This document shows positions 675-18,774 of a stretch of 64,000 nt of DNA, one piece after another; the stretch's first letter is position 1, and every line of letters begins with the position of its first letter. The stretch is from Arthrobacter crystallopoietes. GTDB lineage: Bacteria > Actinomycetota > Actinomycetes > Actinomycetales > Micrococcaceae. The position numbers and the translations under genes were made by a program. The stretch lies in the NCBI RefSeq assembly GCF_002849715.1, contig NZ_CP018863.1, positions 868,001 through 932,000 on the forward strand. Reading direction: 5' to 3'. A model generated the notes under the pieces. It was not told where the DNA came from and did no database searches. It saw nothing but the letters and a program-made list of their open reading frames with translations.

Positions 675-1667
675 TCAGTGGCTGGAGCTGACGTAGCCGC
701 GTTCCTTGTCCACCAGGTTGGCCAGCGGCTCCCCCGCGGTCCAGCGGGTCAGGTTCTGCAGGAACTGGTCCGCCAGGGCCTCGCGCCAGCCGATCACGTC
801 CCCGCACATGTGCGCCGAAATGTGGACATTCTCCAGCTGCCAGAACGGGTGCCCGGCCGGCAGCGGCTCCTCCTCGAACACGTCCAGCGAAGCGGCAGCA
901 ATCTTCCCCTCGCGCAGCGCCTCGACCAGTGCCGCCTCATCCACCAGCGCGCCACGGCCGACGTTGACCAGATGCGCGCTGGGCTTCATGGCCGCCAGGA
1001 CTTCGGCGTTCATCATGTGGCGGGTCTGCTCGGTCAGCGGCGCGATCAGCACAACATGGTCGGCCCAGCCGATATGCTCGGCCAGATCCGCGCTCGGCAC
1101 TACGGTGCCGAAGTCGCCGTCGTTATCCCTTGCGGTCCTGCCCACGCCGCGGACCTCGATGCCGACGGCGCGCAGCAGCCGGGCGGTGGCGCGGCCGATC
1201 CCGCCGGTGCCCACTACCAGTGCGCGCGAACCGCCGGTCGGGGTGAGCTCGCGGTGCTGCCAGACCGATTCCTGCTGCAGGCGCTTGCTCAGGTGCAGCT
1301 GCTTGTCGTGGGCGAGGATGGACGCCAGCGCGAACTCGGCGATGGGCCGGTCGAACGTGCCGTGGGCGTTGGTGACCAGCACCTCGGAGGCCCGCAGCTC
1401 GTCGAACATCATGGCATCCACCCCGGCCGCCGCCACGTGCACCCACTTCAGCGCATCCGCATTCGGCCAGGCCTCACCCAGCGCGGAGGAGAAGAAGTCC
1501 CAGAGGAACAGCACGTCGGCGCCGCGGGCGGCTTCCGGCAGACCGGCCGCATCGGTAATAACGACGTCGGCACGCGCCTTGATCTCGTCAAGATTGTAGG
1601 GGCGGGGCTGGCCCTCCGCAGCGAGAATGACAACGCGGGGACGGGAGCTGGAATCACGGTAAGTCAC
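675..1667 (-). CDS. D-isomer-specific 2-hydroxyacid dehydrogenase
   Basis: 330 aa. This NAD(P)-dependent enzyme family interconverts a 2-keto acid and a D-2-hydroxyacid. The Rossmann motif is GTGGIGRATA (about residues 153-162). The catalytic triad is visible as R238 in VGRGALVDE, an acidic residue near E267 in FEEEP, and H286 in ISAHMCGD. The best start is GTG at 1667. Its GGAGG sits only one base upstream, which is too close, so the start is uncertain. It is divergent from the aminotransferase operon, with the GntR-type operator between them, so it probably belongs to the same regulon. The substrate cannot be read from sequence. A hydroxylated intermediate of hydroxyectoine breakdown is one possibility. 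Confidence 0.85.
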   Translation of the reverse strand: MTYRDSSSRPRVVILAAEGQPRPYNLDEIKARADVVITDAAGLPEAARGADVLFLWDFFSSALGEAWPNADALKWVHVAAAGVDAMMFDELRASEVLVTNAHGTFDRPIAEFALASILAHDKQLHLSKRLQQESVWQHRELTPTGGSRALVVGTGGIGRATARLLRAVGIEVRGVGRTARDNDGDFGTVVPSADLAEHIGWADHVVLIAPLTEQTRHMMNAEVLAAMKPSAHLVNVGRGALVDEAALVEALREGKIAAASLDVFEEEPLPAGHPFWQLENVHISAHMCGDVIGWREALADQFLQNLTRWTAGEPLANLVDKERGYVSSSH

Positions 1668-1691
1668 GCCTCCACGGTACGCGATGAGAGG

Positions 1692-1703
1692 ATTGTTGAC
1701 AAT
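1692..1703. promoter_or_regulatory. Predicted GntR/FadR-type operator, site 1
   Basis: ATTGTTGACAAT is an inverted repeat (ATTG-N4-CAAT). It sits in the 44-bp gap between the divergent hydroxyacid dehydrogenase and aminotransferase genes. The identical 12-mer overlaps the doeA promoter (7765-7776), and a variant precedes the GntR gene (15784-15795). Assignment to the GntR protein is inference from these three positions. Confidence 0.6.
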
Positions 1704-1711
1704 AAACAGGT

Positions 1712-3016
1712 GTGACCTGCACCATAGGTGGCATGACCTCTCTTAGCCCCGCGCTCAAGCAAGCAACGCCCATCGTCGTCGACCACGCCCTCGGCTCGTG
1801 GATCCATGCCACCGACGGCAAGGACTACCTGGATTTCACTACCGGCATCGGCGTGACCAGCACCGGCCACTGCCACCCGAAGGTTGTGGAAGCGGCGCGC
1901 GAACAGGTCGGCAAGATCATCCACGCCCAGTACACCACCGTGATGCACAAGCCGCTGCTGGCGCTGACCGAGAAGCTCGGCGAAGTCCTCCCCGCGGGGC
2001 TGGACTCCGTGTTCTACGCAAACTCCGGCTCCGAGGCCGTCGAGGCCGCCATCCGCCTGGCCCGCATGGCCACCGGCCGGCCCAACATCGTGGTCTTCCA
2101 GGGCGGCTTCCACGGCCGCACCGTCGCCGCCGCTTCGCTGACCACGGCCGGCACCAAGTTCTCCGCCGGCTTCGCGCCGCTGATGGCCGGCGTCCACATG
2201 TCCGCTTTCCCCTATGCCTACCGCTACGGCTGGGACGAAGCCACCGCCGTCGCCTTCGCGCTGCAGGAACTGGACTACCTGCTGCAGACCCGCACCGCCC
2301 CCAATGACACCGCCGCGTTCCTGATCGAACCGGCGCTGGGCGACGGCGGCTACCTGCCCACTCCCCCGGCCTTCATGGAGGGCCTGCGCGAGCGTGCCGA
2401 CCGGCACGGCATCCAGCTGATCTTCGACGAGGTACAGGCCGGCGTGGGCCGGATGGGCAAGTTCTGGGGCCACCAGTACTCCACCGCCACCCCCGACATC
2501 CTCATCACCGCCAAGGGCATCGCCTCGGGTTTCCCCATCTCCGCCATCGCGGCCTCCACCGAGACCATGTCCAAGGCCTGGCCCGGTTCGCAGGGCGGCA
2601 CCTACGGCGGCAACGCCGTTTCCGCCGCGGCCGGCGTGGCCACGCTGGAGGTAGTGGAGGAGGAGGGCCTGGTGGAGAATTCCCGCATCCGCGGCGAGCA
2701 GCTGCAGGCCGGCCTGAAGGAGATCCAGAACCGCTTCCCGGTGATCGGCAACGTCCGCGGCCTGGGCCTGATGCAGGGCATCGAGTTCACCGCCGAAGAC
2801 GGCACCCCGGACGCCAAGACCGCCGCCGCGGTCCAGCAGGCCACCACCGGGCAGGGCCTGCTGTCCCTGACCTGCGGCCCGGCCGGCAATGTGGTCCGGC
2901 TGATTCCCGCCCTGGTAGTCACCGCCGATGAAATCAGCACCGGACTGGAGCGCTTCGAGGCCGCCGTGGGCGCCGTCGTCGGTGCCGTTCCCGCCGGAGC
3001 AGGAACCGGAGCCTGA
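1712..3016 (+). CDS. Class III aminotransferase (4-aminobutyrate / diaminobutyrate type)
   Basis: 434 aa from GTG 1712 or 427 from ATG 1733; both fit the family and neither has a well-placed ribosome site (AGGTGG abuts the ATG). PLP-dependent omega-aminotransferase. Visible motifs are the cofactor-binding NSGSEAVEAAIRLAR, GGFHGRT, the aspartate in IFDEVQAGVGRMG and the PLP lysine in ITAKGIASG (K268 from the GTG). GabT and L-2,4-diaminobutyrate transaminases share this fold. In an ectoine pathway it would convert diaminobutyrate to aspartate semialdehyde (the DoeD role), and the downstream aldehyde dehydrogenase would then make aspartate. GABA transamination is the alternative. It is first gene of a three-gene operon, 7 nt before the next start. 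Confidence 0.85.
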   Translation: MTCTIGGMTSLSPALKQATPIVVDHALGSWIHATDGKDYLDFTTGIGVTSTGHCHPKVVEAAREQVGKIIHAQYTTVMHKPLLALTEKLGEVLPAGLDSVFYANSGSEAVEAAIRLARMATGRPNIVVFQGGFHGRTVAAASLTTAGTKFSAGFAPLMAGVHMSAFPYAYRYGWDEATAVAFALQELDYLLQTRTAPNDTAAFLIEPALGDGGYLPTPPAFMEGLRERADRHGIQLIFDEVQAGVGRMGKFWGHQYSTATPDILITAKGIASGFPISAIAASTETMSKAWPGSQGGTYGGNAVSAAAGVATLEVVEEEGLVENSRIRGEQLQAGLKEIQNRFPVIGNVRGLGLMQGIEFTAEDGTPDAKTAAAVQQATTGQGLLSLTCGPAGNVVRLIPALVVTADEISTGLERFEAAVGAVVGAVPAGAGTGA

Positions 3017-3023
3017 TCCCCCG

Positions 3024-6000
3024 ATGACCGAAGCAGTTCTTCCCGCAACCGGGCAGGCGGACGCCCGCCTGCCCGGCATCCCGGCGCCGGAGAAGCAGCC
3101 GGCGGTGCTGACGCGCCTCGCCGCGGCCGGCGTGGCCGCGGACAGCTCGCCGCGCCGGCTCGCTGAGTACTCCTACGACGCCTCCAACTACCGCGTGCCT
3201 CCGCTGGCCGTGGTGTTCCCGCGCAGCGTGGAGGACGTCGCCGCCGTCGTCGCCGCATGCCGCGAAACCGGGACGCCGCTGATCGGGCGCGGCGGGGGAA
3301 CCTCGATGGCCGGCAACGCCATCGGCCCCGGCGTGGTGCTGGACTTCTCCCGCCACATGAACCGGATCCACACCATCGACGAGGCCGCTGGTACCGTCGA
3401 CGTCGACCCCGGCATGGTGCTCGCCGTCCTCTCCCGCGAGGTGGAGAAGGCCACGGGCGGCAAACTCACCTTCGCCCCGGACCCGTCGTCGAAAACCCGC
3501 GCCACCGTGGGCGGGGCGCTGGGCAACGATGCCTGTGGAAACCACTCCGTGCGCTACGGACGGACCTCTGATCACGTGGTGGAGCTCGACGTCGTTACTT
3601 CCGACGGCGCCCGGCTCACCGCCACTGCCACCGGGCTTCGCGCCACGGACCCCGCCGACAAGGCCTCCGCCGCACGCGCCGCCGCGCTCACCGGTTCGCT
3701 GCAGGAGCTCGCGCACAGCCATCTGGCCGACTTCCGCATGGAGCTGGGCCGCATCCAGCGCCAGGTCTCCGGCTACCACCTGGCCAACCTGCTGCCGGAA
3801 AACGGCTTCAGCGTGGCCCGGGCGCTGGTCGGCTCCGAGGGCACCTGCGCCATCGTGACCCGCGCACGGATGAAGCTTGTCCCCAAACCGGCGAGCGCGC
3901 TGCTGGTCTGCCTCGGGTATGCCGACGTAGTCGAGGCAGCCCGGGATCTGGAAACAATTCTCGAGTTTTCCCCCGCGGCGGTGGAGGGTATTGACGAGGC
4001 CATCGTCGACACCATGCGCTTCCGCCGCGGTGAAGACGCCGTCCTCGGGCTGCCCGACGGCAAGGCCTGGCTGTATGTGGACCTGGACGGCGATGATCCG
4101 GACGAGGTCGCCGCGGAAGCCGACCGGCTGCTGGCCCGGCTCAAGGAGAACGGCCGCCTCGTCGACGGCCGCGCGGTGCCCGACACCACGGCCCGCGCGT
4201 CGCTCTGGCGTGTCCGCGAGGACGGCGCCGGGCTCTCCTCCCGGCTCTCCACCGGCGGCGAGTCCTGGCCCGGCTGGGAAGATTCCGCCGTCGCGCCCTT
4301 GAAACTGGCCGACTACCTGGCGGACTTCCGCGAATTGCTGGCCGAGTTCGGCCTGCAGGGCGTGATGTACGGGCACTTCGGCGCCGGTTGCATGCACATC
4401 CGCATCACCTACGATCTGCGCACCGAGGAAGGCCGCGAGGTGTTCCGCCGCTTCTCGCGCAGGGCTGCCGAACTGGTGGTCCTGCACCGCGGCTCGCTCT
4501 CCGGCGAGCACGGCGACGGCCGCGCGCGTTCGCAGCTGCTCCCGGTGATGTACTCGCCGCGGATGCTCGACGCATTCAGCGCGTACCGCCGCATCTGGGA
4601 CCCGGCCGGCATCCTCAACCCGGGATCGCTGACGGACCCGGATCCGATCGATGCGCACCTCGCGCTCGAGGGCGTGCCGCAGCGGCAGTGGCGCACCAGT
4701 TTCGACCTGCGTCCGATCGGCAGCGGCGGCGGCTCCACGGCGGAAACCGACAGCCCGTCCGACGCCGGCGGCAGCGGAACGGATCCGTGGGTGCACGCGG
4801 TCCAGGGCTGCATCGGCGTGGGCAAGTGCCGCACCGATTCCGGCGGCGTCATGTGCCCGAGCTACCGCGCCACCCGGGACGAAAAGGACTCCACCCGCGG
4901 CCGCGCCCGCGTCCTGCAGGACATGGTCCGCGGCGCCCGCACCGTCGAGGAAGGCTGGAAGTCCGAAGAGGTCCGCGAAGTGCTGGACCTCTGTCTGTCC
5001 TGCAAGGCCTGCTCCAGCGACTGCCCCGTGGGCGTGGACATGGCCACCTACAAGTCCGAGTTTTTCGATCACTACTATAAGGGGAGGCTGCGCCCGCTCT
5101 CGCACTTCTCGCTCGGCTGGCTGCCGCGCTGGCTCAAGATCACCGGCCGCATCGCGCCGCTGGTCAACGCGGTGCTGGCCACGCCGCTGGGCAAACTGGC
5201 CGCCGCGCTGGGCGGGCTCACCACCCGACGCGCCCTGCCGAAGTTCGCCGGTGCGCTCGACTGGCAGCGCGAAGTCGCCGCGGCCGGCGCCCTTCCCCCG
5301 TGGAATTACGACGGCGGGGCGCGGCGCCGTACGTCCGTTACCGCTGCTTCGGCTGCTTCGGCTACGGATGACCGTCGGGTTGTGGACGAGGATTCCGGCG
5401 TCGTGCTGTTCGTGGATACCTTTACCCGCGGTTTCCGTCCCGAAGTGGCCGGCGCCGCGGCCCGGGTCCTGACCGGCGCCGGGGAACGCACCGAGTGCTC
5501 GGCGGACGCGTGCTGCGGGCTGACCTGGATTTCCACCGGGCAGTTGGATACCGCCAAGAAGCTGCTGGGCAAGGCGGCCGAAGCGCTCGACGACGGCACC
5601 GACCGCCCGATCGTCGTCGTCGAACCCAGCTGTGCCGCGGCCCTGCACAAGGACCTGCCGGAACTGGTGCACACCGAGCAGGCCCGCCGGGTGGCGTCCC
5701 GGGTGCGCAGTTTCGCCGCGCACGTCAACGAGCTGGCCAAAGCCGGTTCGCTGCCTGCACCTGCGAACGATCTGCCGGAGGAAGTGGTGCTGCAGACGCA
5801 CTGCCACGAATACTCCGTCTTCGGCGCCGGCACCCAGCGCCAGGCATTGGCCGCCGTCGGCGTAACCGGAGTAACAGATGCCTCCGGCTGCTGCGGGGTG
5901 GCAGGCAACTTCGGCTTCGAGAAGGAGCACTACGACGTGAGCATGCAGGTCGCCGAGCACTCCCTTGCCCCGGCACTGCGAAACACGGACGCGGACACCG

Positions 6001-6173
6001 TGGTGCTTACCGACGGATTCTCCTGCGCCATGCAGGTCAACCAGCTCGACGAGTCCAGACCCGGGCGCCATCTGGCGCAACTCCTGGACCCCGGCAAGCC
6101 GTCCACCGGCCCCAAGGCCGATTCCACTACCGACCTCGACTCTGAACCAATCGACAAAAAGGACCTCGCATGA
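3024..6173 (+). CDS. GlcD/GlpC-type FAD and Fe-S fusion oxidoreductase
   Basis: 1049 aa. N-terminal FAD_binding_4 domain (roughly residues 50-250, with GRGGGTSMAGNAIG and NDACGNHSVRYGRT), then the FAD-oxidase C domain, then a 2x[4Fe-4S] ferredoxin part (CIGVGKC near 596, CLSCKACSSDCPVG near 657) and two CCG domains (near 829 and 956). The architecture is that of YdiJ and of D-2-hydroxyacid dehydrogenases, which pass electrons to quinone. An open frame extends back to 2928, but the ATG at 3024 follows the stop of the upstream gene and has GGAG at about the right distance. The last codons overlap the aldehyde dehydrogenase start (ATGA). With the 2-hydroxyacid dehydrogenase nearby it suggests a D-2-hydroxyacid intermediate; the substrate is unknown. 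Confidence 0.88.
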   Translation: MTEAVLPATGQADARLPGIPAPEKQPAVLTRLAAAGVAADSSPRRLAEYSYDASNYRVPPLAVVFPRSVEDVAAVVAACRETGTPLIGRGGGTSMAGNAIGPGVVLDFSRHMNRIHTIDEAAGTVDVDPGMVLAVLSREVEKATGGKLTFAPDPSSKTRATVGGALGNDACGNHSVRYGRTSDHVVELDVVTSDGARLTATATGLRATDPADKASAARAAALTGSLQELAHSHLADFRMELGRIQRQVSGYHLANLLPENGFSVARALVGSEGTCAIVTRARMKLVPKPASALLVCLGYADVVEAARDLETILEFSPAAVEGIDEAIVDTMRFRRGEDAVLGLPDGKAWLYVDLDGDDPDEVAAEADRLLARLKENGRLVDGRAVPDTTARASLWRVREDGAGLSSRLSTGGESWPGWEDSAVAPLKLADYLADFRELLAEFGLQGVMYGHFGAGCMHIRITYDLRTEEGREVFRRFSRRAAELVVLHRGSLSGEHGDGRARSQLLPVMYSPRMLDAFSAYRRIWDPAGILNPGSLTDPDPIDAHLALEGVPQRQWRTSFDLRPIGSGGGSTAETDSPSDAGGSGTDPWVHAVQGCIGVGKCRTDSGGVMCPSYRATRDEKDSTRGRARVLQDMVRGARTVEEGWKSEEVREVLDLCLSCKACSSDCPVGVDMATYKSEFFDHYYKGRLRPLSHFSLGWLPRWLKITGRIAPLVNAVLATPLGKLAAALGGLTTRRALPKFAGALDWQREVAAAGALPPWNYDGGARRRTSVTAASAASATDDRRVVDEDSGVVLFVDTFTRGFRPEVAGAAARVLTGAGERTECSADACCGLTWISTGQLDTAKKLLGKAAEALDDGTDRPIVVVEPSCAAALHKDLPELVHTEQARRVASRVRSFAAHVNELAKAGSLPAPANDLPEEVVLQTHCHEYSVFGAGTQRQALAAVGVTGVTDASGCCGVAGNFGFEKEHYDVSMQVAEHSLAPALRNTDADTVVLTDGFSCAMQVNQLDESRPGRHLAQLLDPGKPSTGPKADSTTDLDSEPIDKKDLA

Positions 6174-7681
6174 CCACTGAGACCACTTCCCCCGGCCGCA
6201 CCGCAGGCAACGCGCGCACCTCCCAGCAGGCGCTCGACGCCGTTTCCCGCGTCAGCACGGGCGTATTTATCGACGGCGAATGGACCGAATCCGCCTCCGG
6301 CGCCCGCTTCAACGTTGTCAATCCCGCCACCGAAGAGGTCATTGCTACCGTCGCCGACGGCGGTCCGGAAGATGCCCACCGGGCCATCGAGACCGCCGGC
6401 CGTGTGCAGAAGCAGTGGGCGAAGACCTCCCCGCGCGAGCGCAGCGAAATCCTCCGCCGCGCCTACGACCTGATCATGGCCCGGCAGGACGAACTGGCCC
6501 TGATCATGACCACCGAAATGGGCAAGCCCCTCGCCGAGGCCAAGGGCGAAGTCGCCTACGCCGCCGAATTCTTCCGCTGGTTCTCCGAAGAGGCCGTGCG
6601 GATCGGCGGCGACGTCACCACCACCGGCGACGGCAAGAACCGCATCCTGGTTTCCAAGGAACCGGTGGGCCCCTGCGTGCTGGTTACCCCGTGGAACTTC
6701 CCGCTGGCCATGGGCACCCGCAAGATCGGCCCCGCCATCGCGGCGGGCTGCACGATGGTGTTCAAGCCCGCCAACCTGACCCCGCTGTCATCGCTGGCAC
6801 TGGTGGACATCCTGGTCGAGGCCGGGCTGCCCAAGGGCGTGGTCAACGTTGTCTGCACCACCAAGGCCTCCTCGGTGGTCTCCCCCTGGATGGCCAGCGG
6901 CATTGCCCGCAAGGTCTCCTTCACCGGTTCGACCGAAGTCGGCGTGAAACTGCTGCAGCAGGCCTCCGAGCACGTCATGCGTTCCTCCATGGAGCTCGGC
7001 GGCAACGCACCGTTCATCGTCTTCGAAGACGCGGATCTGGACCGCGCGGTCGAGGGCGCCGTGGCTGCGAAGATGCGCAACATGGGCGAGGCCTGCACCG
7101 CGGCCAACCGGATGTTTGTCCAGCGTTCCGTCGCCGACGAGTTCGCACGCCGGCTCGCGGCACGCCTTGGCGCACTCGAGGTGGGCGACGGCGCAGAGCC
7201 GGGCACCGCCGTCGGGCCCCTGGTCGAAGAGAAGGCTCTGGTCAAGGTCCAGGAACTGGTGGACGACGCGGTAGCCAAGGGCGCCACGGTGGTCTGCGGC
7301 GGCTCCCGGCCCGAACGCCCGGGCTACTTTTACACGCCCACCGTGCTCTCCGACGTCAGCCCGGCCTCGGACCTGATGAGCCAGGAGATTTTCGGCCCGG
7401 TGGCGCCCGTGGTCCCCTTCGACAACGAGGAAGAGGTCACGCAGATGGCCAATGACACCCCCTGGGGTCTGGTGGGCTACGTCTTCACGCAGGACGTGGA
7501 CCGCGGCTTCCGGATGGGCGACGCGCTGGAAGTCGGCATGGTCGGGCTGAACACCGGCATTGTGTCCAATCCGGCGGCTCCGTTCGGCGGTGTGAAGGCC
7601 TCCGGGCTGGGGCGCGAGGGCGGCCGCGTAGGCATCGAGGAGTTCCTCGAATACAAGTACATGGCAGTACCGAAGAGCTGA
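6170..7681 (+). CDS. NAD(P)-dependent aldehyde dehydrogenase, succinate-semialdehyde type
   Basis: 503 aa, normal family length with about 20 extra N-terminal residues. Catalytic C309 lies in MGEACTAANR and the general base E275 in SMELGGNAP. The substrate-pocket and cofactor motifs LVTPWNFPLAMGTRKIGPA, SFTGSTEVG and FGGVKASGLGREGG are typical of GabD-like enzymes. The DoeC aspartate-semialdehyde dehydrogenases of ectoine catabolism belong to this same group. The start ATG overlaps the stop of the FAD/Fe-S gene by 4 nt, so the two are translationally coupled. Placed after an omega-aminotransferase, it should oxidise that enzyme's semialdehyde product, either aspartate semialdehyde or succinate semialdehyde. 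Sequence alone does not separate the two. Confidence 0.87.
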   Translation: MTTETTSPGRTAGNARTSQQALDAVSRVSTGVFIDGEWTESASGARFNVVNPATEEVIATVADGGPEDAHRAIETAGRVQKQWAKTSPRERSEILRRAYDLIMARQDELALIMTTEMGKPLAEAKGEVAYAAEFFRWFSEEAVRIGGDVTTTGDGKNRILVSKEPVGPCVLVTPWNFPLAMGTRKIGPAIAAGCTMVFKPANLTPLSSLALVDILVEAGLPKGVVNVVCTTKASSVVSPWMASGIARKVSFTGSTEVGVKLLQQASEHVMRSSMELGGNAPFIVFEDADLDRAVEGAVAAKMRNMGEACTAANRMFVQRSVADEFARRLAARLGALEVGDGAEPGTAVGPLVEEKALVKVQELVDDAVAKGATVVCGGSRPERPGYFYTPTVLSDVSPASDLMSQEIFGPVAPVVPFDNEEEVTQMANDTPWGLVGYVFTQDVDRGFRMGDALEVGMVGLNTGIVSNPAAPFGGVKASGLGREGGRVGIEEFLEYKYMAVPKS

Positions 7682-7738: not shown

Positions 7739-7767
7739 TTGTACCCGGCCGCTACTCCTTGTATATT
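7739..7767 (+). promoter_or_regulatory. Predicted sigma-A promoter of the doeA operon
   Basis: TTGTAC (7739-7744), 17-bp spacer, TATATT (7762-7767). Transcription would start near 7774, so the doeA start codon must lie downstream of that, which excludes the ATG-like start at 7759. Confidence 0.55.
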
Positions 7768-7776
7768 GTTGACAAT
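7765..7776. promoter_or_regulatory. Predicted GntR/FadR-type operator, site 2
   Basis: ATTGTTGACAAT, identical to the site at 1692-1703. It overlaps the -10 hexamer and the predicted start point of the doeA promoter, the geometry expected for a repressor that blocks RNA polymerase. Confidence 0.62.
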
Positions 7777-7824: not shown

Positions 7825-9030
7825 TTGAACGTAAACGGCACGGCCCGCATGCTCTTCACCGCCGAAGAGTATGCGGCACGCCTCGCAGCAGTCCGGCTGC
7901 GCATGGCTGAGCAGGGCCTGAGCGCCCTGCTCGTGACTGACCCGGCGAACATCTACTACCTGACGGGCTACAACGCCTGGTCCTTCTACACCCCGCAGTT
8001 GGTCTTCGTGCCGGCCGAGGGCGACATGATCCTCTTCAGCCGGCAGATGGACGCCAGCGGAGCCTTCCGCACCTCATGGCTACCGCCCGAGTGCATCGTC
8101 GGCTACCCGGAGAGCTACGTGCACCGCCCGCACATCCACCCCTTCGATTGGGTAGCCTTCGCCTTGCGCGAGCGCCACCTGATTGCCCCGGCGGCCAAGG
8201 GCTGCGTAGGTCTCGAGATGGACTCGCATTTCTTCGCGCCCAAGGCCTACCGCGCGCTGGTCAACGCCATTCCCGAATGGACGCTGGTGGACTCCTTTGA
8301 GCTGGTCAACTGGGTGCGGTCGATCAAGTCTCCCGCGGAAATCCAGCTGATGCACAAGGCCGCCGTGATCACCAACAACGCCATGGCCGCCGCCGAACAG
8401 GCTATCCGGCCCGGCGCCCGCAAGTGCGATATCGCCGCGGCCATCACCGAGGCGCAGATCCGCGGCACCGAGGAATTCGGCGGCGACTACACGGCGATCG
8501 TGCCGCTGTTGCCCACCGGCGAGTCAGCCGACACCCCGCACCTGACCTGGAGCGAGGACCGGCTGAAGGACGATGAGCCCGTCGTCGTCGAACTTGCCGG
8601 GGCCTATCAGCGCTATCACGTGCCACTGAACCGCACCTTCTCGCTGGGCGAGCCCTCCGCGGAGCTCAGCCGCCTCGCCGATGCCACCGGCGAGGGCCTG
8701 AACGCCATGCTCGACGTCATCCGCGCCGACGTTCCCGTGCGCGAGGTCGCGGCCGTCTGGAACCGCACCATCTTCGAGTATGGCTATGAGAAGGACTCGC
8801 GGCTGGGCTACTCGATCGGCGTCGGCTTCCCGCCGGACTGGGGAGAGCGGACCATCAGCATCCGCAGCGAAGAAGAATCCGTCCTCGCCGAAAACATGAC
8901 CTTCCACCTGATCTGCGGCATGTGGATGGACAACTATGGCTACGGCCTCTCCGAATCCATCCGCGTGACCGCTACCGGGGTGGAGACGTTCACCACCTAC
9001 AAGCGCGGCCTGCTTCCCATCAACAGCTAG
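7825..9030 (+). CDS. doeA: Ectoine hydrolase, DoeA/EutD type (M24 peptidase fold)
   Basis: 401 aa. Opens the ectoine ring to acetyl-diaminobutyrate in the cytoplasm. The N-terminal creatinase-like domain covers about residues 10-160 and the pita-bread catalytic domain 170-395. Family-diagnostic stretches as I recall them from EutD include EFGGDYTAIVPLLPTG, PHLTW, RYHVPLNRT and GFPPDWGERTISIR. The M24 metal ligands are gone: the first Asp is E256 and the second is replaced in HVPLNRT, matching the metal-independent mechanism reported for EutD, where a glutamate near position 255 forms a covalent intermediate. The start chosen is TTG 7825 with AAGGAG six bases upstream; the earlier in-frame start at 7759 lies inside the promoter. 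First gene of a four-gene operon. Confidence 0.85.
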   Translation: MNVNGTARMLFTAEEYAARLAAVRLRMAEQGLSALLVTDPANIYYLTGYNAWSFYTPQLVFVPAEGDMILFSRQMDASGAFRTSWLPPECIVGYPESYVHRPHIHPFDWVAFALRERHLIAPAAKGCVGLEMDSHFFAPKAYRALVNAIPEWTLVDSFELVNWVRSIKSPAEIQLMHKAAVITNNAMAAAEQAIRPGARKCDIAAAITEAQIRGTEEFGGDYTAIVPLLPTGESADTPHLTWSEDRLKDDEPVVVELAGAYQRYHVPLNRTFSLGEPSAELSRLADATGEGLNAMLDVIRADVPVREVAAVWNRTIFEYGYEKDSRLGYSIGVGFPPDWGERTISIRSEEESVLAENMTFHLICGMWMDNYGYGLSESIRVTATGVETFTTYKRGLLPINS

Positions 9031-9041: not shown

Positions 9042-10286
9042 ATGTCATTCCGGGATCTCCCCCTCGCCGAACGGGCCGGCCACCTCGTCGGATCGGTCAT
9101 CGACTCCAGCACCTCGCTGCTGGCCAAGCAGACACACGACATCGTGCGGTTCGCCATGGGCGCGCCCGCGGAAGAAGCCGTACCGGTGGAGCTGTTCAAC
9201 AGTGTTCCCGCCGCTGTCTACGATGCGTCCTCCTACACCTACGGCGCGACCGAGGGCGAACCGCACCTGCTCGATGCGCTGACCGATTATCTAGCAACGA
9301 CGGCGGACCCCACCGCCCGCGAGCGCATCACCATTACCTCGGGCGGGATGCAAGGCCTGGACCTGGCCTGCAAGATCTTCGTGGACCCGGGCGACCTGGT
9401 GGTGGTGGAAAGCCCCACCTACACCAACGGTTCAGCCACGGCCATGAGCTACGGCGCCGACCTGCTGGAAGTACCGGTCGACGACGATGGCATGATCATC
9501 GACGAGCTGGAAGCCCTGGTGGCCGCCTCGGGACGCACCCCGAAGGCCATCTACACCATTCCGAACTTCCAGAACCCCTCCGGCACCACGCTCTCGCTGC
9601 CCCGCCGCAAGCGGCTGCTGGAGCTCGCCCACAGCTGGAACTCGGTCATCATCGACGACGACCCGTACGGACTGCTGCGCTTCGAGGGCGAAGACCTGCC
9701 CACGTTCAACCAGCTCAGCCCCAACGACCCGCTGATCTTCTCGGTGCGCACTTTCTCGAAGATCCTGGCTCCCGGCCTGCGCGTGGGCTGGGTGGAAACG
9801 GATCCCGAGCTCCAGCGCCTGGTGATCAACGCCAAGCAGGCCATGGACACCTGCACCAACGTTCCGGCCCAGCACCTGGTGGCCGAATTCATCCTGCGCG
9901 GCGGCCTGGACGAGCACCTGAACTGGCTGCGCCGCGAGTACCACAGCCGCAAGGAGGCCATGCTCGCCAGCATCGACCGCCATCTGGGCGACCGGGTGCG
10001 TACTACCAATCCCGACGGCGGCTTCTTCCTCTGGGTCACGCTGCAGGGCGAGGACGCGAAGATCAATTCGCAGCGCCTCTTCGACATCGCACTGGCGGAA
10101 GGCGTGGCCTTCATTCCAGGACCGGCCCTGTCCCCCACCGGACGGTTCACGGACGCTTTCAGGCTTTGCTTCGCTTCCTGCACGCCGGAGCGGATCGAGG
10201 TTGGCATCGAACGCCTCACCAGCGCTTTGGACAAGGCGAGGTCAGAGATGCCCCTCGGTACGGCTGCCTCCTCAGGAGCGCGGTAG
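9042..10286 (+). CDS. PLP-dependent class I/II aminotransferase, LysN-like
   Basis: 414 aa from ATG 9042, 11 nt after doeA; an upstream extension to 8922 would overlap doeA and is rejected. Fold-type I aminotransferase of the 2-aminoadipate (LysN) / MocR catalytic-domain group. The PLP lysine is K240 in FSKILAPGLRVGW; the aspartate-tyrosine pair is in IIDDDPYGLLRFEG, and NFQNPSGTTLS contacts the cofactor. It lacks the N-terminal winged helix of MocR/EnuR regulators, so it is an enzyme and not a regulator. Its position between doeA and the M20 gene suggests it acts on diaminobutyrate, acetyl-diaminobutyrate or aspartate. The exact substrate is unknown. Confidence 0.85.
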   Translation: MSFRDLPLAERAGHLVGSVIDSSTSLLAKQTHDIVRFAMGAPAEEAVPVELFNSVPAAVYDASSYTYGATEGEPHLLDALTDYLATTADPTARERITITSGGMQGLDLACKIFVDPGDLVVVESPTYTNGSATAMSYGADLLEVPVDDDGMIIDELEALVAASGRTPKAIYTIPNFQNPSGTTLSLPRRKRLLELAHSWNSVIIDDDPYGLLRFEGEDLPTFNQLSPNDPLIFSVRTFSKILAPGLRVGWVETDPELQRLVINAKQAMDTCTNVPAQHLVAEFILRGGLDEHLNWLRREYHSRKEAMLASIDRHLGDRVRTTNPDGGFFLWVTLQGEDAKINSQRLFDIALAEGVAFIPGPALSPTGRFTDAFRLCFASCTPERIEVGIERLTSALDKARSEMPLGTAASSGAR

Positions 10287-11576
10287 ATGGCGGCCGCTCT
10301 CGGCGTCAACGCGGACGCCCAGGCGCCCACCCGGGACGAACAGGAAGTCCTCGACCATATCCGGCTGGATGAGATCATCGCCCTGACGGAAAGGCTGGTG
10401 AACGCCGGCGGCGAGAACCCCGGCGGCACCGAACTCGCCACGGCGGCCGTGCTCGAAGCCGAGGCCACGCGCCTAGGCTTCGAGGTGGACATCCAGCCCG
10501 TGGCTCCGGACCGCCCGAATATTCTCTTGACGCTTCTCCCACCGGACAGCAAATCGGCGCTCGGACCGGGCCTGATGTTCCTGGGCCATTCCGATGTCGT
10601 CCCGGCCGGGCCAGGTTGGTCCCGGCCGCCCTTCGAAGCCGTAGTAGCAGACGGCCGCTTGTACGGCCGCGGCTCCACGGATATGAAGGGGGGACTGGCA
10701 GCAGTTGTCGGTGCGATGGACGCATTGAAGCGCTCCGGCGTCGTACTTTCCGGCCCTGTCACCCTGGTCTGCACCGTGGACGAAGAGGATCTCGGCCTGG
10801 GCATCCGTGCCCTGACGTCGGGTGGGCTGCCGCACAGCTACCTCGGATGCGTGGTGGCCGAGCCGACCGACATGGAAACCGTCATCGCCTGCCGCGGCGA
10901 CAGCTACATCGAACTCGAGATCACAGGCAAGCCCGCGCATTCCGGCCGTCCCGCGGATGGGCGGAACGCGATCAGCGCCGCCGCAAGGATCTGCGAGCTG
11001 ATCCGGGCGGACCACGACGCGCTGCAGCAGGATCAGGATCCGCTTCTGGGCAGCGGCACCTGGAATGTTGGGCGCATCGAAGGCGGGGAAGGCACCTCGA
11101 TGGTGGCGCCGTCCTGCCACATGTCCGTGGACCGCAGGCTCATGCCCGACGATGATCCCGAGGACATTCTGGCCAGCTTGCTGCGCAGCATCGGTGAAGC
11201 AGGTATTGATACGGACGGCATCAGCGTAGACGCCGAACTGACTATGCAAATGCCCGGCTTCCGAACTCCGGAGCACCATCCGTTGGTCTCCGCGGCGGTG
11301 AACAGTGTGCTGGCCGCCGGCGGCGAAACCCGCATCAGCGGCTGGACTGCGGCCTGCGACGGCGGCTTCATCGTCAGGGACTACGGCATTCCCGCAATCG
11401 TGCTGGGGCCGGGCGGGTTGAACGACCAGGCCCACCAGATTGATGAGTCCGTAGGGCTGGCCGAACTTACCACAGCCGCACGTACTTTCGCATTGTTGTG
11501 CCTGCGCTTCTTGAGGCATACGGTCAACGACATGCCGGATTCGAAAAATTCGCTCCTAGAAGGAGAACGCCCGTGA
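10287..11576 (+). CDS. M20-family amidohydrolase (ArgE/DapE type), candidate ADABA deacetylase
   Basis: 429 aa. Two-metal hydrolase of the ArgE/DapE/ACY1 group. Ligands and catalytic residues: H101 in FLGHSDVVP, bridging D132 in GRGSTDMKGG, E166-E167 in VDEEDLG, a glutamate in VAEPTD, and a C-terminal His in NDQAHQID. The dimerisation domain carries GKPAHSGRPADGRNA. The ATG follows directly on the stop of the aminotransferase gene, with GGAG nine bases before it. ArgE removes acetyl from an ornithine, so removal of acetyl from N-acetyl-2,4-diaminobutyrate is chemically close. No AstE/AspA-type DoeB is present nearby, so this enzyme is the likely functional replacement (inference). Confidence 0.87.
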   Translation: MAAALGVNADAQAPTRDEQEVLDHIRLDEIIALTERLVNAGGENPGGTELATAAVLEAEATRLGFEVDIQPVAPDRPNILLTLLPPDSKSALGPGLMFLGHSDVVPAGPGWSRPPFEAVVADGRLYGRGSTDMKGGLAAVVGAMDALKRSGVVLSGPVTLVCTVDEEDLGLGIRALTSGGLPHSYLGCVVAEPTDMETVIACRGDSYIELEITGKPAHSGRPADGRNAISAAARICELIRADHDALQQDQDPLLGSGTWNVGRIEGGEGTSMVAPSCHMSVDRRLMPDDDPEDILASLLRSIGEAGIDTDGISVDAELTMQMPGFRTPEHHPLVSAAVNSVLAAGGETRISGWTAACDGGFIVRDYGIPAIVLGPGGLNDQAHQIDESVGLAELTTAARTFALLCLRFLRHTVNDMPDSKNSLLEGERP

Positions 11577-13027
11577 CCCGTTCTGAGCCAATACGAAATG
11601 ATTATCCGGAGCAGCAACTCGCGCCCGGATCCGAGCCAACGACGCCGGAAGCCAAGAAAACGCTCCACCGTGCCATCCTCGGTTCCGCCCTCGGTAACGC
11701 CGTGGAATGGTTCGATTACGGGGTTTACGGCTACCTCACCATTTACATGGCAGTGAACTTCTTCGGTTCCGAAGCCGGCGACGGCGGCCTGGGCGTCACA
11801 CTGACGCTGGCCACCCTGGCGCTGTCCTTCCTGGTCCGGCCGCTCGGCGGTATCATCCTTGGGCCGCTGGGCGACAAGGTGGGCCGGCAGAAGGTCATGG
11901 TCCTGACCGTGCTGATGATGACGCTGGCCACCGGAGCAATCGGCCTGCTGCCTACCTTGAGCACGGTGGGCGTTCTCGCCCCGATCCTGCTGCTCATCTG
12001 CCGCCTGGTGCAAGGCTTTTCCGCCGGCGGCGAGTATGGCGGCGCTGCCGTCTACATGGCCGAATCCGCGCCGGACCGCCGCCGCGGCTTCCTGGGTTCC
12101 TTCCTGGAGTTCGGCACCACCGTGGGCTTCATGCTTGCTGCCGTTGTCTGCACCACGCTGATTACACTGGTGGGCGACCAAGGCATGGAGGACGGCTGGT
12201 GGCGCCTGCCGTTCCTGCTCACCATCCCGCTCGGCCTGACGGCCCTGTGGATCCGGACCCGGCTGGGCGAGGCGCCTGTGTTCTCCGAGGCTTCCGAGCA
12301 CGCCGAGACCACGCGCTCCCCGCTGCGGCACGTGCTGGTCAACAACTGGCGGCAGATCCTGGTGCTGGCCGGTTTCGTTGTCCTGCTGAACGTGGCGTTC
12401 TACCTGATCCTCGGCTACATGCCCACGTACCTCAGCGGCCAGCTCGGACACAGCACGGCGCAAGGCAACTGGATGCTTGTGGCGATCATGGCGCTGATGC
12501 TCGTGGCGATCCCGCCCATGGGCGCGTTGTCCGACCGCATCGGCCGCAAGCCGCTGCTGCTCGTGGCAGCCGGTGGCTACATGCTGCTGTCCGTCCCGTC
12601 GATCATGCTGCTGGGCACACCCAGCCTGCTGCTGCAGTTCCTCGGCCTGGCGGTGCTTGGCATCCTGTTGGTGATTCTGGTTTCGTCTGTCTCCTCGACA
12701 CTGCCGGCGCTGTTTCCGACCTATGTCCGCTACAGCGGCTTCGCCATCGGCTACAACTTCTCCACCGCGTTCTTCGCCGGACCGTCGCAGACCGTGGCCA
12801 ACCAGTTGATCGAGACAACCGGCAACCAGTTGGTTCCGGGCTGGTACATGGCGATCGCAGGACTCATCGGCCTCATCAGCATCCTGTGCATGCGCGAAAC
12901 TTCGCAGGCCACTTTGCGCGGCGAGACGCTTCCTGGGGTACCGGAGTCCGTAGGCGCGCCGAAGCCTATTTATGTTGAGCAGAACCGCGAGGATGCCGAG
13001 GCCCGCCGGGCGAGCTACCAAGCCTAG
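11573..13027 (+). CDS. MFS transporter, metabolite:H+ symporter (ProP-like)
   Basis: 484 aa, about 12 membrane segments. The metabolite:H+ symporter subfamily is marked by GNAVEWFDYGVYGYL in TM1, LVRPLGGIILGPLGDKVGRQ after TM2 and RLVQGFSAGGEYGGAAVYMAE in TM4. ProP, a proton symporter of proline, betaine and ectoine, is a family member. The start is GTG 11573, which overlaps the M20 stop (GTGA) and has AGGAG seven bases upstream; a longer frame from 11498 is rejected. As last gene of the doeA operon it probably imports ectoine or hydroxyectoine. Confidence 0.9.
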   Translation: MTRSEPIRNDYPEQQLAPGSEPTTPEAKKTLHRAILGSALGNAVEWFDYGVYGYLTIYMAVNFFGSEAGDGGLGVTLTLATLALSFLVRPLGGIILGPLGDKVGRQKVMVLTVLMMTLATGAIGLLPTLSTVGVLAPILLLICRLVQGFSAGGEYGGAAVYMAESAPDRRRGFLGSFLEFGTTVGFMLAAVVCTTLITLVGDQGMEDGWWRLPFLLTIPLGLTALWIRTRLGEAPVFSEASEHAETTRSPLRHVLVNNWRQILVLAGFVVLLNVAFYLILGYMPTYLSGQLGHSTAQGNWMLVAIMALMLVAIPPMGALSDRIGRKPLLLVAAGGYMLLSVPSIMLLGTPSLLLQFLGLAVLGILLVILVSSVSSTLPALFPTYVRYSGFAIGYNFSTAFFAGPSQTVANQLIETTGNQLVPGWYMAIAGLIGLISILCMRETSQATLRGETLPGVPESVGAPKPIYVEQNREDAEARRASYQA

Positions 13028-13053: not shown

Positions 13054-13088
13054 CAAAGCGGGGCTCCGGGTTCCGGAGTCCCGCTTTG
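13054..13088. terminator. Hairpin terminator after the doeA operon
   Basis: A 16-bp stem with one G-T pair (13054-13069 with 13073-13088) and a 3-nt loop, between the convergent transporter and HNH genes. Confidence 0.75.
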
Positions 13089-13129
13089 CGTTTGCCGCTG
13101 CTGACCCGAAACACCTCAACGAGAGTGGC

Positions 13130-14803: not shown

Positions 14804-14911
14804 ACTTTCGATTCTATCGTGGAGTGATGGAGGACACAACGATTGGAGGCCGGCTGTTGATATCCCTCAGCGCCAGAAGCAGCACGTCTCAGAACCTGGC
14901 CAGGCGAGCAC

Positions 14912-14944
14912 TTAAAGTGGCGCCCCGAAACGAGCGGTTAAAGT
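14912..14944. repeat. TTAAAGT direct repeats in a short AT-richer patch
   Basis: TTAAAGT occurs at 14912-14918 and 14938-14944 within non-coding DNA between the HNH gene and the GntR gene. GGCGCCCCGAAACGAGCGG separates the two copies. The pattern resembles repeated transposase-binding sites at an insertion-sequence end, but no transposase is next to it. It may be a decayed mobile-element end. Confidence 0.25.
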
Positions 14945-14994
14945 CGCGGCGAGAAAGCGCGAGAGTCGCGAACAGACCGCCGTAGTGACGCCAA

Positions 14995-15723
14995 TTAGCC
15001 TGCCACAGCAGCCGTGGAGGCCCCTTCATCAGAGGCGGCCTCTTCGGCAAGCACCATGCTGCGTGAGATTTTCTCCACGGCGTCATCCATGTGCTCGGCC
15101 AGGAGCTTGTGGAACACCGGCACATCCGCGGCTCCGATAGCGGCCGCAATCGCAACATGCTCGGCCAGCCGGGCCTCAGGGGTGTACCCGGTGTCTTCCA
15201 GTGCCGCCATGCACATGCGCGTCTCGGTGATGAGGGTGTTGTGCATCCGCGACAGCCTGATGCTGTGCGCCATCGCCACCAGCAGTTCATGGAACTCGAT
15301 GTCCAGGTCGCTCAGGACCGCGCCCCGCTCCCCTGCGGCAACCGCCTCGGCCATCCGGTCGGTCACTTCGTGCAGGGCCGCAGAGACCTCTTTGTGCCGA
15401 CCCTCCAGTTCAATGATTTTCAGTCCGGCCGCGCGTTCGACGGCGGTGCGCGCCAAATACATATCGACGATATCCGAAGGGCCCAGTTCGGTGACGAAAA
15501 TACCGCGGTTGCGGATGCTGACCAGCAGGCCTTCCTGCGTGAGCCGCTGCATCGCTTCACGGAGGGGACCCCGACTGACCCCCAGGTCGCGGGCCAACTC
15601 CGCCTCCCCCAACTGCTGGCCCGGCTCGAGCTCCCCGTGGCCGATGGCGTACCTAAGCTTCCGGGCGATAATCGCCGGCGTCGACTCCTGGATCAGGGGC
15701 TCGATAAATCTGCTCTTTGCCAT
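14995..15723 (-). CDS. GntR-family (FadR/FCD) transcriptional regulator
   Basis: 242 aa. Winged helix-turn-helix at about residues 15-75 (GQQLGEAELARDLGVSRGPLREAMQRL, then GLLVSIRNRGIFVTEL) and an FCD ligand domain at about 85-215. Metal- or ligand-binding residues typical of FCD are seen in DIEFHELLV and in a downstream HVAI. ATG 15723 has AAGGA five bases upstream. Ectoine clusters of proteobacteria usually use the MocR-type EnuR, so an FCD regulator here would be a different solution. It likely represses the two catabolic operons and itself through the ATTG-N4-CAAT sites; the inducer is unknown. Confidence 0.88.
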   Translation of the reverse strand: MAKSRFIEPLIQESTPAIIARKLRYAIGHGELEPGQQLGEAELARDLGVSRGPLREAMQRLTQEGLLVSIRNRGIFVTELGPSDIVDMYLARTAVERAAGLKIIELEGRHKEVSAALHEVTDRMAEAVAAGERGAVLSDLDIEFHELLVAMAHSIRLSRMHNTLITETRMCMAALEDTGYTPEARLAEHVAIAAAIGAADVPVFHKLLAEHMDDAVEKISRSMVLAEEAASDEGASTAAVAG

Positions 15724-15783
15724 GGCTTCCTTGCTTTCGGCAGTGGATCCTTGGCAGGCGGCGCACGAGCCACCGCCTGTCTC

Positions 15784-15795
15784 ATTGCAGACAAT
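15784..15795. promoter_or_regulatory. Predicted GntR/FadR-type operator, site 3
   Basis: ATTGCAGACAAT, 61 bases before the GntR start codon. It keeps the ATTG-N4-CAAT frame of the sites at 1692 and 7765 and suggests autoregulation. Confidence 0.52.
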
Positions 15796-15948
15796 CTTAC
15801 AACTTAGCAGCAGAAGCGACTACAGTTCGGTGGCCATCACTTTAACAGAAGGTGAAGACGCCTTAAAACCAACAGGGCGGCGGTACAGTACCGCCGCCCC
15901 ATTGGACGATCACGATGATCCGCTGGCACCCCAGCGAGAAAGAACCGG

Positions 15949-17070
15949 CTAGACGCCCGCGAGCTCCCGATTAGCGGAAGCCAGTTCCAGCCCGTGGGCC
16001 TCGGAAACGGAACGGTGCGTGACCTGCCCCGCCGCGACATTCAGGCCCGCGGCGAGTGCCGGGTCCTTGGCCAGCGCAGCTTCCACGCCCAGATCCGCTA
16101 GCGCTACGGCATAGCGGAGCGTGACGTTGGTGAGGGCGTAGGTGGAGGTGTTCGGAACGGCGCCGGGCATATTGGCGACGCAGTAGAACAGCGAATTGTG
16201 GACGCGGAATGTCGGCTCCGCATGGGTGGTCGGGCGGCTGTCTGCGAAGCAGCCGCCCTGGTCGACGGCGATGTCGACGAGAACGCTGCCGGGCTTCATC
16301 TTGGCGACAAGTTCGTTGCTGACAAGCTTCGGCGCCTTGGCGCCGGGAATGAGCACGGAACCAATCACCAGGTCCGACTCAACAACCGCGCGCTCGATCT
16401 CCAGGCTGTTGGAGGCGAGGGTCTTGAGCTTTCCCGCGTACTGGGCGTCGAGCTCGCGCAGGCGGTTGATATTGATGTCGAGAATGGTCACATCGGCCCC
16501 CATGCCCACGGCCATCGCCGCAGCGTTGGTACCCGCGACACCGGCACCGAGCACGGTGACCTTGGCCGGACGGACACCGGGGACGCCGCCAAGCAGGATG
16601 CCGGGGCCACCGGCGGGAACGGTCAGGGACTGCGCACCGACCTGCACCGAGAGGCGTCCGGCCACTTCGCTCATCGGGGCCAGCAGCGGCAGGGCGCCGT
16701 TGGCCGTCTGGACAGTCTCATAGGCAATGGCCGTGACACCGGAGTCCAGCAGCGCGCGGGTCAGTTCCGGCTCGGCGGCCAGATGCAGGTAGGTGAAGAG
16801 CACCAGGCCCTCACGGAAGTGGCGGTACTCGGAGGCGATGGGCTCCTTGACCTTCATGACCATGTCGGCGCGGGCCCACACCTCGTCAGCGGTGTCGACC
16901 AGCTCGGCACCGGCGGCCGTGTACTCTGCGTCGTCGATCCGCGACCCGGCACCTGCGCCGGCTTCGATCAGCACAACATGTCCGCGGCTGCGCAGTTCGT
17001 GTACGCCGGAGGCCGTGATGGCCACACGGAATTCGTTGTTCTTGATTTCCTTGGGAACGCCGATGATCAT
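15949..17070 (-). CDS. ald: Alanine dehydrogenase
   Basis: 373 aa, full length. Reversible NAD-dependent deamination of L-alanine to pyruvate and ammonium. The N-terminus [18 protein letters not shown], the substrate lysine in MVMKVKEP, the catalytic His in [10 protein letters not shown] and the NAD motif [20 protein letters not shown] are all present, as is [17 protein letters not shown] near the C-terminus. It is divergent from a PucR-type regulator, an arrangement like that of ald and its activator AdeR in Bacillus subtilis. It may supply amino groups or dispose of alanine made by the transaminases of the neighbouring island. Confidence 0.95.
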
Positions 17071-18770: not shown

Positions 18771-18774
18771 TTTC

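Follow-up and report, generated by a model that had tools for sequence, protein, structure and literature searches.

The compatible solute ectoine is widespread and serves as a nutrient both in soils and in the sea. Whether, and by which route, the genes between positions 675 and 17,070 of a 64,000-nucleotide stretch of Arthrobacter crystallopoietes DNA (contig NZ_CP018863.1, 868,001 to 932,000; hereafter the window) serve its consumption is the question raised by this locus. An earlier note on the window had placed an ectoine hydrolase (DoeA/EutD), an M20 deacetylase candidate, a ProP-type permease, an omega-aminotransferase, an aldehyde dehydrogenase and a GntR/FCD regulator here, and all of these genes were found where it put them. 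Computed gene content, co-occurrence, a common operator box and linkage to Ehu transporters show the island to be, with high probability, a GntR/FCD-controlled regulon for uptake and catabolism of ectoine, possibly also of hydroxyectoine, with an M20 enzyme in place of the deacetylase DoeB; the individual catalytic steps are each predicted. The gene set recurs among relatives in several arrangements and is therefore not a chance neighbourhood. Below, L numbers denote compared loci and G numbers compared genomes, G000 being the window's own genome (5.03 Mb). Gene counts in loci come from tblastn, gene calling having missed genes such as the M24 gene of L024. The genes are referred to by the short names 2HADH, AT3, FADFeS, ALDH, M24, AT1, M20, MFS and gntR, and the core features are as follows:

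675..1667, minus strand: 2HADH, D-2-hydroxyacid dehydrogenase, divergent from AT3 (PF02826, 1.6e-52)
1692..1703, no strand: operator 1, ATTGTTGACAAT, between 2HADH and AT3, 8 bases ahead of the AT3 start codon
1712..3016, plus strand: AT3, class III aminotransferase, GabT/DoeD-like (PF00202, 3.8e-112)
3024..6173, plus strand: FADFeS, FAD and 4Fe-4S D-2-hydroxyacid dehydrogenase, YdiJ-like (PF01565, PF02913, PF13183); start chosen, longest frame from 2928
6170..7681, plus strand: ALDH, aldehyde dehydrogenase, GabD/DoeC-like (SSADH TIGR01780, 590.6 bits, cut-off 646)
7765..7776, no strand: operator 2, ATTGTTGACAAT, upstream of M24 (sequence match)
7825..9030, plus strand: M24, ectoine hydrolase candidate, DoeA/EutD-like (TIGR02993; PDB DoeA 6twj/6twk); TTG start at 7825 chosen, longest frame from 7759
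9042..10286, plus strand: AT1, LysN/aminoadipate-type aminotransferase without a helix-turn-helix (HTH) domain (PF00155); start chosen, longest frame from 8922
10287..11576, plus strand: M20, ArgE/DapE-type deacylase, proposed N-acetyl-diaminobutyrate deacetylase (TIGR01910, 216.6 bits, cut-off 217.6)
11573..13027, plus strand: MFS, ProP-like transporter, proposed importer (PRK10642 ProP, 413 bits, cut-off 544); start chosen, longest frame from 11498
14995..15723, minus strand: gntR, GntR/FCD regulator (PF00392, PF07729)
15784..15795, no strand: operator-like site ahead of gntR with one mismatch, ATTGCAGACAAT (sequence match)

In the proposed pathway, ectoine would enter through the ProP-like MFS transporter or, in some relatives, through an Ehu ABC transporter. 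M24 would open the ectoine ring to N-acetyl-2,4-diaminobutyrate, presumably the alpha isomer by analogy with known DoeA, and the ArgE/DapE-type M20 would take off the acetyl group, replacing AstE-type DoeB. AT3 and ALDH (GabT/GabD-like), together with AT1, 2HADH and FADFeS, would then lead from diaminobutyrate to a C4 acid. Regulation would be by the GntR/FCD protein, acting at ATTGTNNACAAT before AT3/2HADH and M24 and, more weakly, before its own gene.

Predicted operator boxes and linked Ehu transporters

The palindrome ATTGTNNACAAT is present in exactly two copies in the 64 kb, ahead of the AT3 and M24 operons, and two one-mismatch copies occur in the window, one of them upstream of gntR and the other within ALDH. 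In shuffled sequences, matches with up to one mismatch averaged 0.31 and never numbered four. Across relatives, every match was recounted without an identity threshold and with at most one mismatch in 51 family-type and 13 other named loci; an earlier, thresholded count had dropped two ehuB, three 2HADH and other rows, nearly all of them boxless. In the family-type loci a box preceded AT3 in 27/28 cases (the sole miss being a 32% paralogue), 2HADH in 25/28, M24 in 32/49 (28 exact), gntR in 22/33 (8 exact) and ehuB in 2/4. AT3 and 2HADH mostly have one divergent site in common, so their counts are not independent. The 13 other named loci gave 9/9 for AT3, 2/2 for ehuB, 3/7 for 2HADH, 3/9 for gntR and 2/13 for M24; in L210 and L220 the M24 run ends with 2HADH. 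Operon-internal genes were devoid of boxes, both in the family-type loci (AT1 0/40, M20 0/40, ALDH 0/37) and in the two sets taken together (0/51, 0/53 and 0/46, respectively), and five scrambled palindromes returned 0 or 1 match per gene group. In the seven loci of the SDR type described below, M24 was preceded by no exact box and by a single one with one mismatch.

The inverted-repeat site is exact before the target operons and carries one mismatch before gntR itself. We infer the GntR protein to be the binder because of this weaker box of its own and its presence in the set; it is likely a repressor at the ATTGTNNACAAT boxes, the direction of regulation, like the binder, being predicted. 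The GntR/FCD regulator announced by the earlier note is supported as a member of the set, with its gene in place and boxes before two thirds of the family gntR matches. Its statement that EnuR is missing holds as judged by the curated cut-off, the genome's best match to the EnuR model NF052286 reaching 161.3 bits against 480.

Relatives of the window's M24 (63-75% identical) adjoin ABC transporters, and all four loci that were tested pass the NCBI Ehu cut-offs. L080, whose M24 is 75% identical to that of the window, has the order ehuBCDA-M24, with EhuB, EhuC, EhuD and EhuA at 201, 211, 217 and 350 bits against NCBIfam equivalog cut-offs of 191, 197, 205 and 345, and in L097 all four subunits exceed their cut-offs beside M24-AT1-M20. 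Glaciibacter superstes (L210) displays a co-directional run AT3-FADFeS-ALDH-GntR-M24-AT1-M20-2HADH, in which most neighbouring genes touch or overlap, followed by ehuBCDA with all four over cut-off. The same order was found in Homoserinimonas sp. OAct 916 (L220), where the three Ehu subunits scanned were all over cut-off. Linkage to transporters over curated cut-offs and the shared operator support ectoine as the substrate class. Inside the window there is no Ehu-type importer, and the candidate importer there is the ProP-like MFS protein. For Arthrobacter, Gordonia, Glaciibacter and Homoserinimonas, this amounts to a defined regulon with a predicted operator, which narrows experimental work to few candidate genes.

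EutA/arylmalonate-decarboxylase-like racemase genes flank the Ehu genes in L210 (14605-15375 and 18822-19682), L205, L083, L086 and L090; the three that were scanned score 77-99 bits against an EutA cut-off of 318, and eutB/eutC were not found there. EutB/EutC were likewise not detected near M24 in 48 GntR-type (0/48) and seven SDR-type loci (0/7).

Extra enzymes and the lower pathway

The earlier note had the route end in aspartate. As stated this lacks support: AT1, 2HADH and FADFeS, three enzymes needless for an aspartate route, which requires AT3 and ALDH only, accompany the set and suggest a possible exit by D-malate. Its gene list stands as far as it goes, and it had overlooked FADFeS, 2HADH and the LysN-like aminotransferase AT1 as set members, together with a DoeB homologue scoring below the cut-off in another part of the genome.

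Orthologues were surveyed in 395 family genomes, 62 bearing and 333 lacking M24. 2HADH (threshold ≥63% identity) was found in 48/62 M24-bearing and 5/333 M24-lacking genomes, and FADFeS in at least 48/62 and at least 14/333; Fisher tests gave p < 1e-35 for both co-occurrences, computed over related genomes that are not independent. AT1 was present in 57/62 M24-bearing genomes and in 0/5 M24-lacking controls. Among these 57, 46 carry both 2HADH and FADFeS, ten carry neither, and G652 has 2HADH, its FADFeS being represented by one match (E 5.8e-129, identity unlisted) and by none in its 20 kb locus. The ten genomes without 2HADH and FADFeS carry AT1 of a divergent clade (56-59%). In seven of them (all except G573, G622 and G680) the locus was read and showed an operon M24-AT1-M20-MFS-SDR, with a different AT3 and ALDH in the same locus and, in six of the seven, an alanine dehydrogenase. 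Three sister genomes lacking AT1 (G476, G527, G542) are also without 2HADH and FADFeS, and their congener G454 carries each of the three; the other AT1-less genomes are G681, which keeps FADFeS only, and G707 (79% complete), which has 2HADH and FADFeS. In the named actinomycete loci (L198-L249, some of which duplicate the family set) AT1 lies near M24 in 22/52; 2HADH or FADFeS accompanies it in 19 of the 22 (exceptions: L201, L204, which is cut, and L230), and the 30 loci without AT1 show one 52% 2HADH (L229) and no FADFeS.

The best solved relatives of AT3 are gamma-aminobutyrate (GABA) aminotransferases, and the nearest solved relative of ALDH is the SSADH 3jz4. FADFeS groups with D-lactate and D-2-hydroxyglutarate dehydrogenases and scores 428.5 bits with the model of the D-2-hydroxyglutarate dehydrogenase YdiJ (cut-off 1350). 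AT1 falls among the alpha-aminotransferases and has PH0207 and the aminoadipate and kynurenine/aminoadipate aminotransferases as solved relatives; its own score with NF052286 is 128.3 bits, and it has no HTH. We discarded the idea that AT1 is an EnuR remnant (27% identity to S. meliloti EnuR over 301 residues). AT1 is read as an enzyme because aminoadipate-type enzymes score higher and because it is a conserved operon member.

Two routes were weighed for these genes. It is about evenly balanced whether the island follows an aspartate route with a swapped deacetylase, in which M24, M20, AT3 (as DoeD) and ALDH (as DoeC) would produce aspartate, AT1 would convert aspartate to oxaloacetate, and 2HADH and FADFeS would form an accessory NADH/D-2-hydroxyglutarate shuttle. 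AT3 and ALDH are indeed of the GabT/GabD kind, as are DoeD and DoeC in the available part of PMC5320631, and 2HADH-FADFeS pairs in three M24-lacking genomes (G423, G432, G545) indicate that the pair can stand alone. However, in M24-lacking family genomes with an orthologue, boxes were absent directly upstream of 2HADH (0/5) and of FADFeS (0/12; one further FADFeS sits at a contig end). Only the 2HADH count fairly contrasts with the 25/28 of the family-type loci, because FADFeS usually follows AT3. The joint loss of AT1, 2HADH and FADFeS in G476, G527 and G542 would also be unexpected for a generic shuttle.

The second route, which we regard as possible and rather doubtful, would avoid aspartate and run through D-malate. 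AT1 would deaminate diaminobutyrate or its gamma-acetyl form at the alpha position, 2HADH would reduce the product to D-4-amino-2-hydroxybutyrate, AT3 and ALDH would turn the gamma end into a carboxylate, and FADFeS would oxidize D-malate to oxaloacetate; with AT3 acting first, the route would likewise end in D-malate. In the sister branch the SDR would replace the reductase and give L-malate, with FADFeS lost. Such a route would use every gene of the set once. It is consistent with the 46 of 57 AT1 genomes that carry 2HADH and FADFeS and with the divergent AT1 of the ten that carry neither, and in the seven of these whose loci were read the SDR stands in for 2HADH. The absence of FADFeS from the SDR clade fits because L-malate, if this is the SDR product, needs no D-2-hydroxyacid oxidase. 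On the other side, the substrates of all five enzymes are predicted, and the genomes are related and not independent. Brevibacterium rongguiense (L230) has AT1 without a 2HADH, FADFeS or SDR match in the locus, and AT3-FADFeS occurs without M24 too. The literature searched on D-malate and 4-amino-2-hydroxybutyrate contained nothing about this cluster among the matches listed. With the gene set in hand, the choice between aspartate and malate becomes directly testable.

A plasmid locus of the haloarchaeon Natrialba magadii (L121) combines a class III aminotransferase, an M20, a DoeA-like M24, a glutamate dehydrogenase, a FAD/Fe-S dehydrogenase, a D-2-hydroxyacid dehydrogenase and an EutB-like dehydratase. 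Its M24, M20, FADFeS and 2HADH are 31-46% identical to those of the window.

M24 and ectoine as its proposed substrate

Residues 31-418 of M24 align end to end with the solved DoeA 6twj/6twk (343 bits), and the best solved protein other than DoeA reaches only 72 bits. It shows 42% identity with S. meliloti DoeA and 48% with the M24 of Priestia, which lies beside eutB and a cyclodeaminase gene whose product has 49% identity with S. meliloti EutC. Among named M24s, the nearest (97%) come from Arthrobacter sp. VKM Ac-2550 and SF27. A tree of 79 M24s puts that of the window in a clade of 52 rows (support 100/99), one of three branches within a 69-row group (93/93). Of the remaining two, one contains proteobacterial-type DoeAs along with two long rows and the other unites Priestia and Natrialba. 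M24 is nearly a DoeA by homology and is none by curated score. The phrase "clear DoeA" of the earlier note was too strong on sequence alone, given 396 against 613 bits.

Several observations weigh against an ectoine regulon. Against the curated DoeA model TIGR02993 the window's M24 scores 396.1 bits, under the equivalog cut-off of 613, as do the M24s of Priestia (530.8) and Natrialba (470.6), and its close relatives bear the NCBI names Xaa-Pro dipeptidase or M24 metallopeptidase. It has 16/35 DoeA-diagnostic residues, a number also reached by the Bradyrhizobium M24 of L123, a cluster that does not resemble ectoine catabolism. The M24s of 26 Brevibacterium loci are 60-63% identical; neither M20 nor AT1 was found in their neighbourhood, and they are not preceded by a box. 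The box is absent before 17/49 family and 11/13 other M24 matches and before ehuB in L080 and L117. Within loci of at most 20 kb each, ehuB lies near M24 in 4/48 and ehuA in 8/48 GntR-type loci; most loci, the window's included, would therefore have to use another importer or one encoded elsewhere. G401 (L276) and G787 (L286) hold AT3-FADFeS and a GntR gene with a one-mismatch box in the absence of an M24 match; in G787, AT3 is also preceded by a one-mismatch box and an ehuA-like gene (54%) lies nearby. The lower block of these two genomes perhaps works with another ring-opening enzyme or is a remnant. The window's genome also contains a single match to the DoeB model TIGR02994 outside the island (G000:C1:2708713, 241.9 bits, cut-off 402.7), and the literature searches turned up no bench test in these organisms.

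The residue signature was dropped as a criterion: three of its eight "paralogue" rows (L035, L036, L038) came from doeBDAC-type clusters, and the M24s of L035 and L036 are DoeA_2 by later scans. It is not decisive because it separates DoeA branches and not ectoine from non-ectoine enzymes.

It is improbable that M24 acts on some other small cyclic or N-acyl compound and that the island is not for ectoine. The score under the DoeA cut-off would allow this, as would the M24/M20 pairs that occur with other transporters in Bradyrhizobium (L123) and Agrobacterium (L125), but the Ehu linkage of relatives over curated cut-offs and the common operator argue against it.

The Bradyrhizobium plasmid locus L123 has two M24s and an M20 with a gamma-glutamyltransferase and a racemase, and its M24/M20 pair probably has a different substrate. 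The two Brevibacterium loci read (from L221-L249) have the M24 gene beside one of AsnC type and one for a class III aminotransferase. The window's own genome contains two nearly identical M24 paralogues, C1:2,334,749 and 2,478,766 (L002 and L003), about 144 kb apart.

M20 as the probable stand-in for DoeB, and known ectoine clusters

M20 was found in 59/62 M24-bearing family genomes (not in G618, G652 and G681) and in 0/5 M24-lacking controls, and what we take to be its metal-ligand motifs align with the solved ArgE 7rsf. In contrast, DoeB (TIGR02994) was over cut-off in 0/76 M24-bearing genomes (62 family, 14 others); weaker matches occurred in 20/76, of which 11 lie in the family at 213-250 bits, the window's genome included, and 51/62 M24-bearing family genomes gave no match to the model. 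An AstE-type DoeB near M24 was not found in the 48 GntR-type and seven SDR-type loci. An ArgE-type enzyme would be chemically apt because N-alpha-acetyl-diaminobutyrate is acetylornithine minus one CH2. Together, these data support M20 taking the place of AstE-type DoeB, as the earlier note had suggested. Its "no AstE-type DoeB" survives in scans of the island and, for the genome as a whole, has to be qualified by the one match below the cut-off. The DoeB homologue elsewhere in the genome, which the note had named (if coexpressed on ectoine) as evidence against itself, exists in divergent form, in a family where most M24-bearing genomes match no DoeB model, and has no box.

That homologue, at C1:2,708,713 and 1.8 Mb from the island, is very improbably the true deacetylase with M20 in another role: its DoeB score and 38% identity to S. 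meliloti DoeB speak for it, but relatives occur in only 11/62 M24-bearing family genomes, no box lies in its own locus (20 kb) or in any of the ten related ones (each of 3.2-4.0 kb), and nearby genes encode a Rieske-like oxygenase, a ferredoxin reductase and an ABC transporter of the amino-acid type that scores under the Ehu cut-offs. The catabolic cluster around it (L022, G000:C1:2,704,000-2,717,500) also includes an Lrp regulator and an M20D amidohydrolase, and its substrate is perhaps another N-acyl or N-methyl amino acid. PF04952 was dropped as a probe for DoeB absence, since it gave no match in the window's genome although TIGR02994 did.

When 51 families were ranked by their scores with the window's M20, DoeB2 (NF038260, cut-off 550) did not appear in the top 25, the last of them standing at 68 bits. 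In the M20 tree, the window's clade (23 rows, 100/99) and that of a second actinobacterial group, f16/f39 (9 rows, 100/100), both lie on the ArgE/DapE side. Across the deepest split, on the M20D side, are the enzymes of Priestia and of the doeBDAC clusters. A common origin of the window's and the f16/f39 M20s was considered and set aside, as the tree does not join the two. This second group (L025-L034) backs the M20 reading independently: an M20 adjoins a DoeA-branch M24 in 9/10 loci (not L033), and the M24s are 57-65% identical to S. meliloti DoeA in nine and 54% in the tenth. The M24 of L027, the one scanned, exceeds the DoeA cut-off (633.5 against 613 bits) and is followed by an acetylornithine-deacetylase-type M20 (356 bits, cut-off 297.7), with ehuBCDA-like genes upstream (by resemblance, unscored) and divergent eutB/eutC-like genes. 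The loci of the group mostly have Ehu-like genes, and several have divergent eutB/eutC-like and cystathionine-gamma-synthase-like genes. They would represent a cluster of the ectoine/hydroxyectoine type in which M20 takes the place of DoeB. Across the clusters compared, at least two sides of the M20 family appear to have supplied the deacetylase.

With the proteobacterial ehuABCD-eutABCDE/doe clusters (S. meliloti, R. pomeroyi, H. elongata) the window type has in common an M24 hydrolase of the DoeA family, a class III aminotransferase, a semialdehyde-type dehydrogenase and, in some relatives, the Ehu importer. Unlike them, it lacks AstE-type DoeB, nearby EutB/EutC and an EnuR over cut-off, and has M20, GntR/FCD and the extra AT1, 2HADH and FADFeS. 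The doeBDAC clusters with DoeA_2/DoeB_2 (NF038259, NF038260; Methylotuvimicrobium, Tsukamurella; L035) likewise combine an M20-family deacetylase with AT3 and ALDH neighbours in an actinobacterial ectoine cluster. However, their M24 is only 30-33% identical and of another M24 branch, their M20 is on the M20D amidohydrolase side, and L035, L036 and L038 show no AT1, 2HADH or FADFeS match. The Bacillota type pucR-eutBCD-atf-abgB-thrA-adh (available part of PMC13188858; Priestia L120, Neobacillus/Bacillus L250-L256) resembles the window in M20, MFS, the lack of EutE and an M24 at 46-48%. It differs in that EutB/EutC, a cystathionine-gamma-synthase-like protein and homoserine dehydrogenase replace AT1/2HADH/FADFeS, PucR replaces GntR, and M20 is on the M20D side (Priestia). 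The f16/f39 loci have in common with the window an ArgE/DapE-side M20 next to DoeA and no DoeB over cut-off, and differ in the proteobacterial DoeA branch of their M24, the unjoined M20 lineage and, in several, EutB/EutC-like genes.

The available text of PMC13188858 describes experimental validation of ectoine catabolism as limited to few Proteobacteria, and that of PMC5924519 places ectoine consumers in Proteobacteria only. In Methylotuvimicrobium alcaliphilum, a doeB mutant identified N-alpha-acetyl-diaminobutyrate as the DoeB substrate there; this DoeB is 22% identical to that of Halomonas, and a Tsukamurella doeBDAC cluster was noted in 2020 (all from the available part of PMC7192451). 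We infer that the M. alcaliphilum enzyme is a DoeB2. DoeB2 over cut-off, with DoeA_2, was also found in L035, an actinobacterium of the window's order. As of April 2026, the accessible portion of PMC13188858 reported putative, provisional Gram-positive clusters, the Bacillaceae examined being without eutE and with an abgB amidohydrolase; the words Arthrobacter and Micrococcaceae are absent from its main text. M20 as DoeB is hence already known in kind, and the window's M20, judged by its placement, is another M20 lineage. Searches on ectoine catabolism in Arthrobacter, Micrococcaceae, Gordonia and Brevibacterium, in literature mostly without subscription papers, did not return this cluster among the matches listed. 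Nor did those matches include a precedent for an ArgE/DapE-type M20 in the DoeB position, for a GntR/FCD operator shared by the genes of import, hydrolysis and the lower pathway, or for the AT1-reductase-FADFeS block.

Two further genes complete the island:

13130-14839, minus strand: HNH-endonuclease protein, between MFS and gntR
15949..17070, minus strand: alanine dehydrogenase, possible amino-group recycler (TIGR00518, 572.9 bits, cut-off 391.9)

Alanine dehydrogenase was rejected as a core member: in the window no box precedes it and its membership is weak, the gene lying near M24 in 11/48 GntR-type and 6/7 SDR-type loci. Among the loci compared, the HNH gene was matched in none but L070 and L071, the closest relatives (identical to L198 and L199; 72-78%), and is perhaps a recent insertion into the island. 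At the island's right edge, an IS3-family transposase pair (18715-20114) directly follows a PucR gene.

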